DNA of 64,000 nt from Anatilimnocola aggregata (lineage in GTDB: Bacteria; Planctomycetota; Planctomycetia; Pirellulales; Pirellulaceae), in the NCBI RefSeq assembly GCF_007747655.1, contig NZ_CP036274.1, forward strand, positions 1,736,001 through 1,800,000, read 5' to 3'. Made by a program: the position numbers and the translations under genes. Under the pieces are notes generated by a model that was given only the letters and a program-made list of their open reading frames with translations, was not told where the DNA came from and did no database searches. This document shows, piece after piece, positions 26,431-60,637 of the stretch. Positions within the stretch are counted from its first letter, which is position 1. Each line of letters opens with the position of its first letter.

Positions 26431-26661
26431 CTAAAATTTGCCCCCCAGGTCCCACGACTCCGGTCGCAACTTTCGGTCAATCTGCTCTAGCGGCCAGAAC
26501 ACACGGGAACACAGTTTGTTCTGCCAGCGGTAGTGTTCTTCAAATATCGCCTTGTAACCGTGAATGCCCCTGGGCACGACCAGTGCGAAATAGCTCCCTA
26601 CGTACAGCACCGGCACGAGCAGCAAGACGATAGCGACGATGAGGGGTGCGCGGTTGGTCAT
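26431..26661 (-). CDS. Small membrane protein, planctomycete type
   Basis: A 76-residue protein with one N-terminal hydrophobic helix (residues 7-27, I-V-A-I-V-L-L-L-V-P-V-L-Y-V-G-S-Y-F-A-L-V), then V-P-R-G-I-H-G-Y and a basic, aromatic tail. The L-Y-V-G-S-Y-F-A-L-V segment recurs in small planctomycete membrane proteins. It starts 4 nt after the stop of a 43-residue membrane protein, so translation is probably coupled. Function unknown. Confidence 0.65.
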   Translation of the reverse strand: MTNRAPLIVAIVLLLVPVLYVGSYFALVVPRGIHGYKAIFEEHYRWQNKLCSRVFWPLEQIDRKLRPESWDLGGKF

Positions 26662-26665
26662 CGTG

Positions 26666-26797
26666 TTAGTTGCGAATTATCACGTTGCCACTGCGAATAA
26701 TCTTCCAGGCACGGGGGTGTGGAATATTTACCCATAACGCACAAAGCACGGCCGCAGTGAAAATGAGCCAACAGAGATGGCGAATTGAGAACTGCAT
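26666..26797 (-). CDS. 43-residue membrane microprotein
   Basis: A short open frame beginning M-Q-F-S-I-R-H-L-C-W-L-I-F-T-A-A-V-L and ending in I-I-R-N. The opening F-S-I-R-x-L-x-W-L followed by a hydrophobic helix matches a leader-like motif common in small planctomycete membrane proteins. It ends 4 nt before the next start on the same strand, an operon-like arrangement. The ribosome-binding site is weak. Function unknown; the pair with the downstream 76-residue protein is the main support. Confidence 0.6.
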   Translation of the reverse strand: MQFSIRHLCWLIFTAAVLCALWVNIPHPRAWKIIRSGNVIIRN

Positions 26798-27312
26798 CGC
26801 CCCATTCTACCCGCGCACGAAAAAGCCCTGTTAGATTTGCGCGGCCGATACACCTAGTCCGGAGTGCTTCGGTTGGAGCGACTTCGAGAATGGGTGAACC
26901 TTAAGTAACGGCTTGAATCGCAAGCCACCAAAGCGGGGGGCGTTCAACTATCGTGTCCATATTTGAACAGTGATGTGCGCAACTCTCGGGTTTGCGAGCG
27001 ATTGGTGTTCAATTATCAAGGTGATAGTTGAACATGTAGGATGTAATTAGGCGCGGAGATCTCGCGGCGGTCGTGGTTGCCTGAGATGCTTGCTTGGTTC
27101 GATCACAGGCCCGCCCCATGAGCAGTTGGGGCACGCAAATTGGCCCACTACCGATTGCCTGCCTAGCTTTTCGCCCGCGGTTGGGGGCCGTAGACTTGAG
27201 TTGTCGAGGTTTGCCTGCCTGCTAGCTCTCATCCAGCAGGTATTGAAGCTCGGCTCTCATCCAATTCATCACGGGCCTGCGCCAGCTTCTCGCTGCCGGC
27301 AGGCGGCGGAAA
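26798..27312. other. Divergent intergenic region holding structured element A
   Basis: 515 bases between the two small membrane protein genes (leftward) and the lipoprotein gene (rightward). Bases 26872-27050 hold copy A of the paired-dyad element, listed separately. The stretch 27051-27312 has no supported gene; the word GCTCTCATCCA occurs twice (27223-27233 and 27254-27264), flanking 20 bases. A GGCGGAA before 27313 is the likely ribosome-binding site of the lipoprotein. Confidence 0.6.
26872..27050 (+). repeat. Paired-dyad structured element, copy A
   Basis: Three dyads in order. First, GGCTTG / CAAGCC at 26910-26926. Second, a 27-nt dyad at 26942-26968, arms GTTCAACTAT and ATATTTGAAC. 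Third, a 27-nt dyad at 27007-27033, arms GTTCAATTATC and GATAGTTGAAC (one G-U if RNA). The 38-nt core between the last two contains AACTCTCGGGTTTG. A second copy, with compensatory changes in the arms, lies at 47640-47816. No open frame explains the conservation. Confidence 0.8.
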
Positions 27313-30072
27313 ATGCGTATGCGGCTTTTGGACTCGCCAGCGGAACCAACCTATATCGCTCCGACCCAGCACGCTTCTGCAGCGACCGCCCGTCAGCAGG
27401 CATTGCTCGTTTGGCTCCTGGTCACGCTGTTATTGTTGCCACTCGCCGGGTGCCAGGGGTGTTGGTCGTCGACGGCCAGCAACAAAAAGTTGACTGAGGA
27501 AGAAGAGCAAGCCGAGAACGAAAAGAAGAAAAAGAAGCTCGCCGAGAAGCCCAAGCTCGACTTTGAAATTCCTCCCACGATCATCCTGCCCAATGAATCG
27601 GGGCAGGAGCTTGACGAGAATCCCGACAACACTAAGCCCAACTCGCCGAAGGTCGTGTTTTTTACCAAGCCCGGGCATTGGATCGCCGGGGCTCAATTGG
27701 CCAAGGCCAACAACTTCGATTTTCAAGGCGAGCTGCGATCGTTCCCCATGGATCAGGCCGAGCAGCCCTTGGATGTTGAACATACCGATTTTCGCCTGAG
27801 CATCTCGCGGCCAGCGTCGTTGCCCAAGGGGCAACAGAAGCGCTTCGAGACGATGTTCTATCTTCCTAAGCGCGGCAACCTGCTCAGCAAGTCGTATTCG
27901 CTGCGGACCGAACTGCGGGCCACGCGCACCTCGCGCCTGCCCGAGATCGTCAACGTGGCTGGCAATTCGATGTTGGAGCACGAGTATTACCTGGTCGTGC
28001 TCGCCAAGAACAATTCGGCCTACGTCGATCTCACCAAGCTCGACTCGGTGCAACTTCACGGCAGCGAACTGAGCGGCAGTATCGGTTCGTTGGAGGATCG
28101 GCGCGTCGGCAAGTTCTATCAAGTGGTTCTTCCCCGCGTCGATAAGAGCGTGCCGCTGCCGAGTCATCCGTTGGCCTGGACGATGATCAGTTACATCATC
28201 TGGGACGATCTCGATCCCACGGTGCTAACCGGTGAGCAGCAGGCAGCACTTCTCGATTGGCTTCACTGGGGCGGGCAATTGATTATCAGTGGCCCGAACT
28301 CGCTCGATCGATTGAAGCAAACATTTCTCGCGCCTTACCTGCCCGCCGAGAGTGGCACCGCGCTCGAGATCGACAACGACAAGCTGCAGGAGATCAACGA
28401 GCATTGGTCGGTCGAGGCCAAAATGCCTTTGAAGAAGCCGGCCACCATGCAAGTGCCACCCGATAAGCCGCTGGTCGGCGTGCAATTGGTAAAACACGCC
28501 GAAGCTGAATGGTTGCCGAATACGGGCAGGCTGGTGCTTGAGCGCCGACTTGGCCAGGGCCGAATCGTGGTGACGGCGTTTCCGCTCTCCGCGTTTCCGT
28601 TTCGCTATTGGGCCAGTCGCGATAACTTCTTCAACGCTTGTTTGCTCCGCCGACCAGCCCGCTCGTTTTCGAATCCCAATGACGAACTCATCATGCGTTG
28701 GAGCGGCAAGATGGCCGCGGCTCGTGCCGACGATCCGCGGCTAGCCACCACACTGCGGTACTTCAGTCGCGATATCGGCCGCTGGCAGGCGCCAAAGAGC
28801 GAAGAGCGTGTCAGGCCGTTTCAATCGCCGGCCGTTGCGCCTCCCGTGTCGACCGATATCGATCCCACGGGTTTGATCACCGAGCAATCACCACGGCTGG
28901 AAGACCTCAATCGCACGGTGCGCGACACTTGGAGTTCCACAGCCATCAGCAGTGCGCCGGGTGGAATTGTCGATTATCGCTTCGCTGGCTATCAAACCGA
29001 TCAACTCTCCGGTGTCGGCGGTTGGAACGATTTCAGCGGCGCTGCAGAAGCTTCAGTGGCCGCGCTTAACGATGCTTCGGGCATCAAGATTCCCCGCTCC
29101 GAGTTCGTGGTGAAGACACTGGCGGTCTATCTGTTCGTGCTGGTGCCGCTAAATTGGTTCTTCTTCTGGATGATCGGCCGCGTGGAGTATGCGTGGGTTG
29201 CCGCACCAATTATTTCGGTCATCGGTGCGGTCTCGGTCGTTCGCCTGGCCCAACTCGATATCGGCTTTGCCCGTAGTCGTACCGAGATTGCCTTGCTCGA
29301 ATCGCACGCGGGCTATCCGCGCGCGCACGTCACGCGCTTTACCGCGCTCTATACGTCTCTCTCGACCAGCTACGACTTGCGCTTCGATGACCCGGCTGCT
29401 CTCGCCTTACCTTTAGCCTTATCGGCCGACCATCAGCGACGCCTCACTCGTACGGCCAGCGATGTGGCGCTAACCCAAAACGAAACGATCGAACTGAGTG
29501 ACGTCTATGTCAATTCGAACTCGACCGGCAAGGTGCATGTCGAGCAGATGATTTCGCTCGACGGCACGTTTGAAGTGACCGGCGATGAGGACAAAGGCTG
29601 GCAGCTTGAGAATGGGAGCCAGTTTCTGCTGCGTCACGCCGGCATCTTACGCGCCCGAGAAGATGGCGAGATCGAAGCTGCTTACTTTCCCGATGTGCAA
29701 CCCGGAGCGACCGTGCGGCTGAACTTCTCGAAGCAGAAAGAGCCATGGGTGCCGCAGTGGAACAACTCGGCCATGATGTCGTCGACGGCCCCCACCGATG
29801 ACGAGAATCGGGTCCGTTTGCACCGCTTGTCGGAACTGGCTGCCCGGCAGTTGAAGTTGCTTCCGGGCGATATGCGGCTGATCGCTTGGACCGACGACAG
29901 CATTCCCGGTTTGCAGATTCGTCCGTCATCGGCCCAAAGCAGCACGTTCACGCTCGTGCTCGTTCATCTAAAACGAGCCGCTCTTCCGGAACCCGAGCCT
30001 GATACGAATTTGCGGGTCGAAGTGCGACAGGATGAGGTCCTCTCTGAAGATGAGAAGGAAGTCGGACAGTAA
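27313..30072 (+). CDS. Large lipoprotein with C-terminal membrane helices, ABC-associated
   Basis: A 919-residue protein. An N-terminal hydrophobic stretch ends in the lipobox L-P-L-A-G-C (about residues 43-48), followed by a highly charged E/K-rich linker (about 58-80). The large middle is beta-rich with no catalytic motif. Two hydrophobic helices lie near residues 597-640 (V-K-T-L-A-V-Y-L-F-V-L-V-P-L and A-A-P-I-I-S-V-I-G-A-V-S-V-V). The gene ends 42 nt before an ABC ATPase and may be its membrane partner, similar in layout to auxiliary proteins of gliding-type ABC systems. Function unknown. A weak GGCGGAA precedes the ATG. Confidence 0.6.
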   Translation: MRMRLLDSPAEPTYIAPTQHASAATARQQALLVWLLVTLLLLPLAGCQGCWSSTASNKKLTEEEEQAENEKKKKKLAEKPKLDFEIPPTIILPNESGQELDENPDNTKPNSPKVVFFTKPGHWIAGAQLAKANNFDFQGELRSFPMDQAEQPLDVEHTDFRLSISRPASLPKGQQKRFETMFYLPKRGNLLSKSYSLRTELRATRTSRLPEIVNVAGNSMLEHEYYLVVLAKNNSAYVDLTKLDSVQLHGSELSGSIGSLEDRRVGKFYQVVLPRVDKSVPLPSHPLAWTMISYIIWDDLDPTVLTGEQQAALLDWLHWGGQLIISGPNSLDRLKQTFLAPYLPAESGTALEIDNDKLQEINEHWSVEAKMPLKKPATMQVPPDKPLVGVQLVKHAEAEWLPNTGRLVLERRLGQGRIVVTAFPLSAFPFRYWASRDNFFNACLLRRPARSFSNPNDELIMRWSGKMAAARADDPRLATTLRYFSRDIGRWQAPKSEERVRPFQSPAVAPPVSTDIDPTGLITEQSPRLEDLNRTVRDTWSSTAISSAPGGIVDYRFAGYQTDQLSGVGGWNDFSGAAEASVAALNDASGIKIPRSEFVVKTLAVYLFVLVPLNWFFFWMIGRVEYAWVAAPIISVIGAVSVVRLAQLDIGFARSRTEIALLESHAGYPRAHVTRFTALYTSLSTSYDLRFDDPAALALPLALSADHQRRLTRTASDVALTQNETIELSDVYVNSNSTGKVHVEQMISLDGTFEVTGDEDKGWQLENGSQFLLRHAGILRAREDGEIEAAYFPDVQPGATVRLNFSKQKEPWVPQWNNSAMMSSTAPTDDENRVRLHRLSELAARQLKLLPGDMRLIAWTDDSIPGLQIRPSSAQSSTFTLVLVHLKRAALPEPEPDTNLRVEVRQDEVLSEDEKEVGQ

Positions 30073-47466: not shown

Positions 47467-47903
47467 GGTGAACAACTCCGCTGAGTTCGAGAGGTCAAGA
47501 GAAGGGGGCTACTGCGAACGCCGGCGACAGGCACCAACTTTTCAGTAGTTTCCTCATTATACGGGGCTAATGTTTTCCGGCGGGGCGCCAGCTGGCATTT
47601 TCAAGTTACCTCTTTCGCTCTGCCATAACTGCGGGCTGAGTTGAACGACTTCGAGAACGAGCTACCTGCTTGTGACTGCTTTGTGTGCAAACCGCTAAAG
47701 GGGGGTGTCCAACAATGGGGTCGATTGTTGGACAGTGGATCGCATAACTCTCGGGTTTGGCTGGGTATTGCTGTCCAACAATAGAGGTAAAAGTTGGACG
47801 TTTACGATGAAACTGAGAGTGAGATTGCGGCGCTGGACATTCAGGTGAGCCCACAATCTGTGCCGGAGGTTCTGCCAGCACGCGGAGCGTGAGGAGTACT
47901 ATA
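47467..47903. other. Divergent intergenic region holding structured element B
   Basis: 437 bases between the PQQ-propeller gene and fhcB. The stretch 47640-47816 is copy B of the paired-dyad element. The 170 bases upstream of it have no supported gene; an AT-rich run near 47548-47574 could hold a promoter. The 3' end has GAGGAG (47891-47896), the ribosome-binding site of fhcB. Confidence 0.6.
47640..47816 (+). repeat. Paired-dyad structured element, copy B
   Basis: Second copy of the element at 26872. Dyad 1 at 47707-47733 has arms GTCCAACAAT and ATTGTTGGAC (10-bp perfect, 7-nt loop). Dyad 2 at 47773-47799 has arms GTCCAAC and GTTGGAC. The 39-nt core contains AACTCTCGGGTTTG, as in copy A. 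Relative to copy A, T to C in the left arms is matched by A to G in the right arms of both dyads. The upstream flank shares GACTTCGAGAA and a poly-G run. Confidence 0.8.
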
Positions 47904-49262
47904 ATGGTCCTCGCCCCCAGGAATCGAACAACGATGGTGCCCACTCCAGCTACTGCGTCTGAATTGCCGAACATCGTGCCCGATGTTACCTGCACCGCAT
48001 GCGGCTGCCTGTGCGACGATATTGAACTGACCATTGAAGGCCAGCGGATTACCGCAGCCAAACAAGCATGCGCGCTGGGCAAATCGCGGTTCCTCAGTTT
48101 TCGAAATGAACCTCGCCCAACTTGTTTCCTTCAAGGACAGCCAGCCACGTTGGCCGCGGGCATCGAACGGGCCGCTCAGTTGCTGACAGCGGCTAAGTAT
48201 CCACTGGTCTTCGGCTTGACCGAAACCACCATCGCCGCCCAGCGCGCGGCAGTGGCGATTGCCGATTGGCTGGGCGCTGTTGTCGACGCCACCGCTGGCG
48301 ATTATCACGGAGCGAGTGGGCTGGCCTTTCCCAAGGTCGGCGAATCGACCTGCTCGCTGGGCGAAGTAAAGAACCGCGGCGACCTCATTCTTTTCTGGGG
48401 AACCGATCCCGCCGAAAGCCATCCCCGGCACTTCGAGCGTTACAGCTTGCAACCAGCAGGCCTGTTCGTGCCGCGGGGAAGAGCGGACCGGACTTGTGTC
48501 GTGATCGATGTGCGGCAGAACAAAACCGCTGAGCAGGCCGACCAGTTGATCGCTGTGAAGCCCGGCAGCGATTTCGAAGCGATTTGGACGTTGCGGGCTT
48601 TGCTCGCCGGGATTGAAGTCGATCCAGAGCAAGTCGCCACGACTACAGGCCAATCGCTTGACGTTTGGAAACAACTTCTCGCGCAGCTGAAGCGTGCCAA
48701 GTACGGTGTGATCTTCTTCGGGGCAGGCATAACTCAAACGCGCGGCCAGCATGCCAATGGCGATGCGCTGCGCGCGTTGACGCGCGACTTGAATCGGCAT
48801 ACGCGTTTCGTCTGCCGGTTGAATCGCGCTGAGTGCAATAGCTCGGGAGCAGATAACGTGGCTGCCTGGCAAACCGGATACGCGCTGGGCGTGAATCTCG
48901 CCCAGGGTTATCCACGCTTTAGTCCCGGTGAGTATACAGCTGCCGCAGTGCTCACCCGCCAAGAAGCGGATGCGGCGCTGATCGTCTCTGGCAATCCACT
49001 CGCGCAGTTGCCCTCGCCCGCGAAAGCTCACCTGGCCACAATTCCGCTGATCGCACTTCATTCCCAGTTTAATTCGACGACGCCAGCCGCAGACGTGGTC
49101 TTTAACGTTGCCACCAGCGGCATTGAAATCCCCGGCACCATGTACCGGTTCGATGACGTTCCCGTTCCTCTGCACAGCGTCTTCACCGCGACTCAGCCCA
49201 GCGATCATGAAGTGCTGCTGGCCATCGAGCAGCGCGTGAAAGAATTGAAGAAGTCAAAGTAA
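47904..49262 (+). CDS. fhcB: Formylmethanofuran dehydrogenase/formyltransferase-hydrolase subunit B
   Basis: A 452-residue protein of the molybdopterin-oxidoreductase-like FwdB/FmdB/FhcB family. The N-terminus has C30-T-A-C33-G-C35-L-C37-D-D, the conserved family cysteine cluster, then A-C-A-L-G-K-S-R-F. In bacteria, FhcB is part of the tetrahydromethanopterin C1 oxidation route at the formyl-transfer step. Planctomycetes are one bacterial group that carries these genes. ATG 47904 is preferred, with GAGGAG 8 nt upstream; 47934 is an alternative. The other fhc subunits are not in the window. Confidence 0.85.
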   Translation: MVLAPRNRTTMVPTPATASELPNIVPDVTCTACGCLCDDIELTIEGQRITAAKQACALGKSRFLSFRNEPRPTCFLQGQPATLAAGIERAAQLLTAAKYPLVFGLTETTIAAQRAAVAIADWLGAVVDATAGDYHGASGLAFPKVGESTCSLGEVKNRGDLILFWGTDPAESHPRHFERYSLQPAGLFVPRGRADRTCVVIDVRQNKTAEQADQLIAVKPGSDFEAIWTLRALLAGIEVDPEQVATTTGQSLDVWKQLLAQLKRAKYGVIFFGAGITQTRGQHANGDALRALTRDLNRHTRFVCRLNRAECNSSGADNVAAWQTGYALGVNLAQGYPRFSPGEYTAAAVLTRQEADAALIVSGNPLAQLPSPAKAHLATIPLIALHSQFNSTTPAADVVFNVATSGIEIPGTMYRFDDVPVPLHSVFTATQPSDHEVLLAIEQRVKELKKSK

Positions 49263-59929: not shown

Positions 59930-59934
59930 ATTTC

Positions 59935-59999
59935 GTGGCATAGGCTTCCAGCCTGTGTCGCCCCGCAGAGATGGATGACAGGCTGGAAGCCTATCCCAC
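59935..59999. repeat. Palindromic intergenic repeat, copy 3
   Basis: The left arm GTGGCATAGGCTTCCAGCCT (from 59935) and right arm GACAGGCTGGAAGCCTATCC, ending in CCAC (to 59999), form a near-perfect stem of about 22 bp with one mismatch. It starts 5 nt after the smpB stop and ends 5 nt before the convergent mocA stop. This copy is the best-preserved of the three in the window. Confidence 0.8.
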
Positions 60000-60004
60000 G
60001 TGTG

Positions 60005-60637
60005 CTACTTGAAACGCTGGTAATCCGCCGGCGTATCGATATCGGCAAACGCTTGAGGACCTTGCGCGAGAAGATCGTCGCAGGGAATCTCGCGGACCGG
60101 GTTGCGAGTAAGGAGTGCTTTTACTCCCTCGTTAGTACCCAGTTGATGGACCTGAGCCGATAGCGGCCAGGGAAATAGCACCGGGTGCCCATGCTTACCA
60201 GCGATGGTAGGAACAAGAATCGAAGTGGAGTGACTGGCGACCGACTCGCAATGGAGTTGCAGTAATCGACCAATGATTGCCACCGATAATCGCGGCATAT
60301 CGGCGGGCGCAATCAGCCAACAATCGTGCTCACCGGGATGAAACTGCCCGTCGAGAAACTGAAGAGCCAGTTGCACCGAGACCTTCATTTCCGAAGGGGG
60401 TGCTTGCGGTTGTAATACGTCAGCCCCACGTTCACGGCAGACTTGCACCAGCGCTTCATCGTTGGGGCGAACTACCACCAGCGGCTTCAATCCGGCAGTT
60501 AACCACGCATCAATGGTGTGCGCGATGAGCGGTTTACTCTGCAACGGCAGAAGCAACTTCGGCTCGCCCATGCGGCGGCTTTCGCCCGCAGCAGGAATGA
60601 TGGCAAAAGCGCGCAGGTGATTCGGTTCCTCGCGCAC
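60005..60637 (-). CDS. mocA: MobA/MocA-like nucleotidyltransferase
   Basis: A 210-residue NTP transferase. The signature F-A-I-I-P-A-A-G-E-S-R-R-M-G-E-P-K-L-L-L-P matches MobA/MocA enzymes that attach CMP or GMP to molybdopterin. GTG start 60637, 3 nt after the xdhC stop. XdhC-linked members are usually the CTP-type MocA, which prepares the cofactor of xanthine-dehydrogenase-type enzymes. Symbol is therefore an inference from the neighbour. Confidence 0.75.
   Translation of the reverse strand: MREEPNHLRAFAIIPAAGESRRMGEPKLLLPLQSKPLIAHTIDAWLTAGLKPLVVVRPNDEALVQVCRERGADVLQPQAPPSEMKVSVQLALQFLDGQFHPGEHDCWLIAPADMPRLSVAIIGRLLQLHCESVASHSTSILVPTIAGKHGHPVLFPWPLSAQVHQLGTNEGVKALLTRNPVREIPCDDLLAQGPQAFADIDTPADYQRFK

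Follow-up and report, generated by a model that had tools for sequence, protein, structure and literature searches.

Why two palindromes of equal length should lie a fixed distance apart in intergenic DNA of Anatilimnocola aggregata, and what kind of element such an arrangement represents, is the question raised by this locus. An earlier note, made from the letters of a 64,000 nt stretch of the chromosome (the window), recognised two copies of the arrangement, A (26872-27050) and B (47640-47816), proposed that selection acts on the pairing of their arms rather than on sequence, and suggested that the element could be a structured RNA, a mobile palindromic element or a recombination site.

Two paired dyads in intergenic DNA

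In copy A, the 27 nt dyads occupy positions 26942-26968 and 27007-27033, exactly 38 nt apart, with AACTCTCGGGTTTG inside the spacer, just as first described. Copy B was said to share this spacing, which is true only to within a base: the alignment places one extra base in its core, giving a distance of 39 nt rather than 38 nt. The dyads are present in both copies, as is the reciprocal exchange of T for C and A for G in both dyads of copy B, although pairing is imperfect in both dyads of A and in dyad 2 of B.

An alignment of 41 rows, A1, comprising copy A, 39 other sequence matches and copy B, formed the basis of a covariance model, R1. On the forward strand, R1 matched copy A at 26933-27050 (120.5 bits); the conserved unit, approximately 130 nt long, spans 26921-27050, its left border being placed by conservation and its right border approximate. 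This unit contains a G-run at 26935-26940, evident as conserved columns in A1; dyad 1 (H1, 26942-26968), with 10 nt arms, a 7 nt loop and one C-A mismatch; the 38 nt core (26969-27006), read from the sequence; dyad 2 (H2, 27007-27033), with one T-G pair; and the right-end motif TAGGATG (27037-27043), in the columns following H2 in A1. Pairing counts support both dyads. A possible small central hairpin, CTCGGGTTTGCGAG, lies within the core at 26985-26998; as it is paired in 80.5% of cells in the 41 close copies and only 56.7% in a set of 30 diverse ones, it was rejected as a general feature. With borders set in the same way, the unit of copy B spans 47686-47816 on the forward strand (R1 match 47698-47816, 110.7 bits) and consists of a G-run at 47700-47705, visible in the sequence and in A1, dyad 1 at 47707-47733 and a 39 nt core with AACTCTCGGGTTTG at 47734-47772, both read from the sequence, and dyad 2 at 47773-47799, which pairs well over its outer 7 bases only.

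Both copies are intergenic by the gene positions given by our own hexamer-based predictor, which was trained on the window. Small minus-strand ORFs are predicted on one side of copy A, their end lying near 26735, and a gene begins on the other at 27313; copy B has on one side a minus-strand gene with its start at 47475 and on the other a gene that begins at 47904. The larger neighbouring genes are ordinary: near copy A, one for an amidohydrolase-like protein past the small ORFs and, after the copy, one weakly matching DUF4350; beside copy B, one for a PQQ beta-propeller protein and one weakly matching a molybdopterin oxidoreductase. The small minus-strand ORFs, at 26431-26850, one of them beginning MQFSIRHLCWL, belong to a multicopy small-protein family, the DNA of which recurs at about 40 places in the congener at 72-90% identity; another copy of the element (L086) also adjoins a stretch paralogous to it.

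A dispersed family in one genome

Far from being the only two copies, which the earlier note had held would count against it, A and B form part of a family dispersed through their own 9.0 Mb single-contig genome, where full-length copies occupy at least 113 places and further pairing changes are seen. As a sequence query, 26872-27050 gave at least 40 matches in this genome (the best 40 of 84 candidates), with E values from 4.7e-89 to 4.3e-10. Model R1 gave 139 matches at E <= 1 among 150 candidates scored, many representing the opposite strand of the same palindromes, and these reduced to 97 places, of which 94 have both dyads and three only a single one. A broader model, R3, was built from 30 rows picked for diversity (alignment A3: 29 from this genome and one from a congener) and added at least 19 places among the 150 matches listed, the full-length total being that of the union of R1 and R3.

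Members share a conserved unit of approximately 130 nt in which the G-run, dyad 1, an asymmetric core (CTCTCGGGTTT), dyad 2 and a TAGG-like end follow in that order. The modelled part is 117-119 nt long in 91 of 93 copies (118 nt in 68, 119 nt in 12 and 117 nt in 11; the remaining two measure 109 nt and 129 nt), and TAGG occurs within 13 nt after H2 in 43 of the 93. A few members (L120, L127, L130, L133, L183 and L207) have lost or altered inner arms. In five copies (L123, L129, L131, L132 and L135), judged by eye, the core is reverse-complemented, reading CCGAGAG in four and TCGAGAG in the fifth, with the G-run and right end unturned, and two loci (L136 and L137) are single-dyad relics; both kinds of product would be expected if the two dyads of a copy recombined with each other. 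At one locus (L117:2700-3200), two elements with different arm types stand about 245 bp apart, and the intervening stretch is a repeat of the 3' end of the adjoining gene. The family is named nowhere in the literature searched on such repeats.

Beyond this genome, the covariance search proposed in the earlier note found only a single further locus, in shallow scans of relatives. Within a first set consisting of this genome and 39 others, a congener was the only other genome to match (R1, 44.8 bits), and scanning it with R1 and R3 revealed one locus with the same geometry in other letters. This locus is itself a row of R3, which makes its R3 score true by construction, and was found first by R1. 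No paralogue of it was found in the congener by sequence. Colinearity between the two genomes stops just before the element, and there is no copy among the matches listed within 50 kb of that colinear end in A. aggregata. When the best 15 candidates per genome were scored across 241 genomes of the family, two matched, including A. aggregata itself; across 392 genomes of the phylum, with the best nine candidates scored in each, it was the only match. Viral contigs, plasmids and phages gave no match to the element, and a pattern search of named public genomes, which possibly left out A. aggregata, returned single palindromes only, in Spirochaetes, Treponema, Lysinibacillus and Breznakibacter records. 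Palindromes like GGGGTGTCCAATAAGT...ACTTATTGGACACCCC are repeated in the Spirochaetes MAG RA.bin110 (L160-L170), with similar single ones in Treponema, Breznakibacter and Lysinibacillus.

Placement and borders

Of the 97 places matched by R1, 93 lie outside predicted genes. The flanking genes fall almost evenly into the four orientation classes (26 ++, 24 -+, 23 -- and 20 +-), and a cis-regulatory leader or terminator was rejected on this ground. Copies are scattered at a median spacing of 54 kb, three neighbouring pairs being less than 3 kb apart against 4.2 expected at random, and both strands are occupied in each of nine 1 Mb bins. The absence of a strand preference counts against mobility, as a replication bias like that of IS608 would lead one to expect one.

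About 100 sites of this kind might alternatively be bound by a chromosomal protein of the nucleoid or partition type, and in the 41 close copies the half-sites G-T-Y-C-A-A and T-T-G-R-A-C are indeed nearly invariant and their spacing near-fixed. However, the occupation of both strands in every bin, the near absence from the congener and the existence of GTTGAA and GTTGAT types of half-site all argue against such a role, and a dimer site would not call for coordinated change at its variable positions; we regard it as very unlikely.

The unit is sharply bounded on the left and not on the right. Among the 30 closest pairs, the mean ungapped identity per 10 nt is 0.77-0.96 inside the unit, as opposed to 0.62 at -10 to -1, at most 0.37 beyond -20 and at most 0.43 beyond +120. 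In gapped alignments of the eight closest pairs, the left ends fall between -22 and +3, and in three of the eight the right flank is common beyond the unit, to +163, +196 and +213, or 45-95 nt past the right end. Similarly, 1937 of 2073 pairwise alignments over the unit are contained within -30 to +140, with 40 passing -40 and 43 passing +150, involving 21 copies on each side; copy A is one of the 21 with some alignment past +150, its homology with some copies extending further right. The copied segment may thus be larger than the unit, with faster-changing flanks. Blocks containing GGAAATTTCC, another repeat sometimes adjoining the element, occur 100-300 nt upstream of a few copies (L018, L019, L047 and L011).

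Across 118 nt, the median identity to the nearest neighbour is 0.81 and the highest value 0.94. With no near-identical pair to prove recent movement, either the family spread some time ago or its copies change quickly. No convincing empty site was found on comparing the flanks of 96 matches with about a tenth of the genome, the one candidate being an internal repeat of a single locus. Direct repeats of 4-8 nt at a fixed offset within 60 nt of either side, as a target duplication would leave, were no more frequent around 93 copies than in mispaired controls, although duplications at variable borders would escape this test.

Conservation of pairing

Pairing rather than exact sequence is kept across many copies, in agreement with the proposal made from A and B. 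In A1, standard pairs make up 88.8% of paired cells, compared with 83.1% after shuffling (none of 500 shuffles as high), and sliding one arm by 1-3 columns reduces them to 30-47%. Double-sided changes affect 76 cells against 37.5 in shuffled alignments (again 0 of 500 as high); the number of pairs with a double change (nine) and of further pair types (19) were unremarkable, being equalled in 64 and 91 of 500 shuffles, respectively. In A3, all five pairing measures were matched by at most two of 500 shuffles. There, 95.2% of the cells of dyad 1 are paired and seven of its 11 pairs show double changes; the figures for dyad 2 are 87.3% and eight of 11, its inner part being weak (60-73% paired at three inner pairs). 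Most rows of A3 were retrieved with a model in which the pairing was built in, hence its statistics lean towards structure; those of A1 lean less so, as 40 of its 41 rows come from sequence search and the other is copy B.

A tree of 68 copies, built from 86 non-arm columns, allowed changes in the arms to be counted as steps. Over the two dyads together, 0.47 of steps are common to both arms, as against 0.14-0.36 for slid partners. The arms of dyad 1 undergo 86 and 89 steps, 54 of them in common (0.63), whereas the proportion for dyad 2 (arms 3-4), 0.32, is not above that of comparisons between dyads (0.36-0.45, with 0.38 for arms 1-4 and 0.45 for arms 1-3). Part of the signal therefore reflects the four arms changing in concert, and only dyad 1 clearly fits the local-hairpin model. 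As whole hairpins may have been swapped between copies, these steps are not all independent events. Even dyad 1 is fully paired across 10 bp in just 38 of the 68 copies.

The excess of standard pairs and double changes over shuffles speaks in favour of a family of structured RNAs, such as small RNAs or processed hairpins, with the fold under selection in each copy. Further points on this side are the polarity of the non-standard pairs, as G-T(U) pairs outnumber A-C mismatches by 60 to 33 on the plus strand of the 68 copies, a modest hint, equally in line with a mobile element, that this is the folded strand, and the greater conservation of the unit than of its flanks even where the flanks are homologous, identity in the closest pair being 94% in the unit and 84% over 222 nt. 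Against it, a functional RNA would not usually have more than 100 paralogues in its own genome and a single locus in a congener, the core is reversed in some copies and gene orientation is random. There is also no Rfam match, either in the window at gathering scores or, up to E = 1, in 12 loci, ten of them from the sister family described below and two from the present one.

It is also conceivable that pairing is kept by mutation, through template switching or gene conversion of hairpins, rather than by selection, in which case the elements may be dead repeats. The concerted change of the four arms fits this, as does the recurrence of some arm types as blocks, one arm pair being carried by 13 of 68 copies and two others by six each. 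However, the 68 copies harbour 41 distinct arm pairs; a general correction should treat both dyads alike, yet in the diverse set H1 and inner H2 differ as described; and the fixed length and conserved unpaired core would need a separate reason. Such upkeep is considered unlikely, and pairing is likely to be maintained by selection. This falls short of proof, because both arms can also move together when whole hairpins are exchanged among copies or palindromes are corrected by template switching.

Alternative folds

Folding A and B as single-stranded DNA gives z-scores of -3.4 to -4.8 across the two strands. The long fold envisaged in the earlier note, with arms 1-4 and 2-3 paired, stands as a prediction: it is the minimum-energy form of 25 of 91 copies as plus-strand DNA and of 39 of 91 as RNA, the corresponding figures for two local hairpins being 50 and 33. 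A and B themselves take the long form as plus-strand DNA. Two folds, two local hairpins and one long interrupted hairpin, are thus predicted to compete. The mean predicted RNA energy is lower on the plus strand (-39.3 kcal/mol) than on the minus (-31.6 kcal/mol), a further point for the structured RNA reading. A general outer stem, P1, was considered but is not put forward for the whole family: in 93 copies, the left and right flanks pair at -25.4 kcal/mol against -24.8 kcal/mol for mispaired flanks (standard deviation of means 0.33), an advantage of just about 2 standard deviations.

The long fold had also prompted comparison with attC sites, whose consensus boxes are RYYYAAC and GTTRRRY. These boxes are fitted by GTYCAAC in arm 1 and GTTGRAC in arm 4, and arms 1-4 and 2-3 can pair, the long fold being the preferred plus-strand DNA form in the minority of copies just given. 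However, copies are scattered, at the median of 54 kb and with fewer close pairs than expected, and changes are more often shared by arms 1 and 2 than by arms 1 and 4. There is little in favour of recombination sites of an integron, a highly improbable identity for the family.

A sister repeat family

The end modules of the element, the G-run and AGGATGA, also form the ends of a second family, in permuted order. The sequence AAAGGGGGGTGTYSA is found at 79 exact places in the genome, its reversed control at none, and 40 of 48 examined places outside the first list have the layout GTTTATCAACA-AATAGGATGA ... GCAAAAGGGGGG-TGTTGATAAAC or one near it. This sister repeat (loci L171-L219; for example, L195:1488-1776 on the minus strand and L176:1257-1528 on the plus) is about 280 nt long, with 11-12 nt inverted ends GTTTATCAACA/TGTTGATAAAC. 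With one copy as the query, a shallow sequence search (best three candidates per genome) drew a blank in the congener, while two other genomes of the bacterial family gave just short matches of 30-35 nt, with E values of 4e-4 and 9e-4. A coding reading was rejected, the frame before GGATGA being open for at most 116 codons and mostly fewer than 60. Orientations of the neighbouring genes are mixed (11, 11, 8 and 7, plus two overlaps and one open end).

Boxes resembling TTGACA-N16-19-ATAAT lie upstream of 33 of 40 sister copies and at none of 40 for each of three control positions, and a block similar to TTGGCAACCTGGTGG (<=4 mismatches) is likewise upstream of 33 of the 40. A promoter-like start in the sister family lends something to the structured RNA reading of the focal one, but the focal family itself has no excess of promoters by a strict or a relaxed pattern: such pairs occur within 350 nt upstream of two of 93 copies, compared with 1, 1 and 0 of 93 in controls, and inside none, and one of the two copies follows a sister element. 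The strict pattern catches only five of the 40 sister copies, and the relaxed one was written after the sister sequences had been seen. Taking these points with those above, a family of structured RNAs is, on balance, unlikely.

A more speculative proposal is that the two families are states of one mobile system, in which a structured intermediate of about 280 nt, transcribed or single-stranded and with its own promoter, would spawn the short two-hairpin copies in a SINE-like spread independent of any REP transposase; we think this rather improbable.

Relationship to known repeats and a possible mode of spread

MITEs with terminal inverted repeats are small, non-coding and dispersed, and are moved in trans. 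The focal element is similar in size and dispersal. A motif of the ACTTACGTCG type (<=2 mismatches, a count made without a chance control) is found on at least one side of 25 of the 97 matches. In 14 of these the unit stands between the motif and its complement, an inverted pair that may have either orientation and is at near-identical positions in eight of the 14; further cases were seen outside this count. Unlike a MITE, the element is without target duplication, and the outer pair, which occurs in both orientations, was not detected at the other 83 matches by the same test.

By kind, its nearest kin appear to be REP dimers and REPINs. REPs with GTAG or CGTC tags are described, in extracts of PMC3733652, as short intergenic palindromes of high copy number, often arranged as dimers mostly 20-100 bp apart; some dimers have conserved spacers, they fold separately or as one large stem-loop, and some lie inside larger palindromes (PMC3733652). 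The focal family is likewise high-copy, extragenic and palindromic (at least 113 places; 93 of 97 outside predicted genes), and its ACTTACGTCG-flanked subset may be in the same situation as the dimers inserted in larger palindromes in those extracts (PMC3733652). It lacks the constant GTAG tag, however, which is found within 13 nt after H2 in six of 93 copies, and compared with the dimers as described there it has instead a G-run and TAGG motif at opposite ends and an asymmetric conserved core. According to extracts of PMC3116915, REPINs resemble it in being extragenic and of high copy number, in having two palindromic ends set a fixed distance apart and in showing compensatory changes on the two sides of the hairpin. 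The ends of a REPIN as described there are inverted copies of one 16-mer and its spacer is less conserved, whereas the ends of the focal element differ and its spacer is among its most conserved parts (PMC3116915).

The REP comparison extends to the mover. There are seven matches to PF01797 (Y1 transposase) in the genome, and none of the seven loci (3.2-3.4 kb each, a span in which a copy within approximately 1.5 kb would be seen) has an R1 match at E <= 1; four motifs searched with one mismatch are also absent. A Y1/RAYT link was thus rejected, and as the family has neither the constant tag nor a RAYT gene beside it, it is not filed as REP. Three of the Y1 loci (L051, L052 and L054) carry other short palindromic repeats on both sides, recurring in 1, 6 and 3 other loci examined, and are apparently RAYT-REP systems distinct from the focal family. 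Another dispersed repeat, a palindrome of about 75 nt at window positions 59934-60007, matches L049:3250-3322 on both strands; L049 also matches L139.

Of the three readings with which this analysis began, that of a mobile palindromic element fits best, in view of the high copy number, the bounded unit with its sharp left border, the intergenic and orientation-free placement and the near restriction to one genome. We consider it probable, if by no great measure, that A and B represent a family of small non-autonomous mobile palindromic elements with a REP-dimer-like layout of two palindromes at a fixed distance around a conserved spacer. Kept pairing and absent target duplication suggest recognition of a folded strand; single-strand transposition of the TnpA-REP or IS200-IS605 type, as presented in extracts of PMC8266576, would explain both, although the focal copies are without a linked gene of such a type. 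By analogy, an HUH-type single-strand transposase seems the likeliest class of mover. Under the favoured mobile-element reading, an enzyme acting in trans would copy the unit when a single strand of its DNA is exposed and has folded, recognising the two hairpins, or one long fold, together with the G-run on the left and the TAGG motif on the right, and insertion would proceed without duplication of the target. Changes in an arm would then survive mainly when the partner arm follows, and the reversed-core copies and single-dyad relics would be products of the recombination within a copy suggested above.

Implications

More than 100 natural variants that largely keep a two-hairpin fold amount to a ready-made mutational scan, showing which bases are kept as letters, namely the half-site ends and the CTCTCGGG core, and which mainly as pairs. 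For annotators, the family is a caution that covariation within one genome may stem from a repeat family rather than a functional RNA. The mover, if found, would test whether single-strand transposition beyond that of RAYT and IS200/IS605 spreads palindromes in bacteria.
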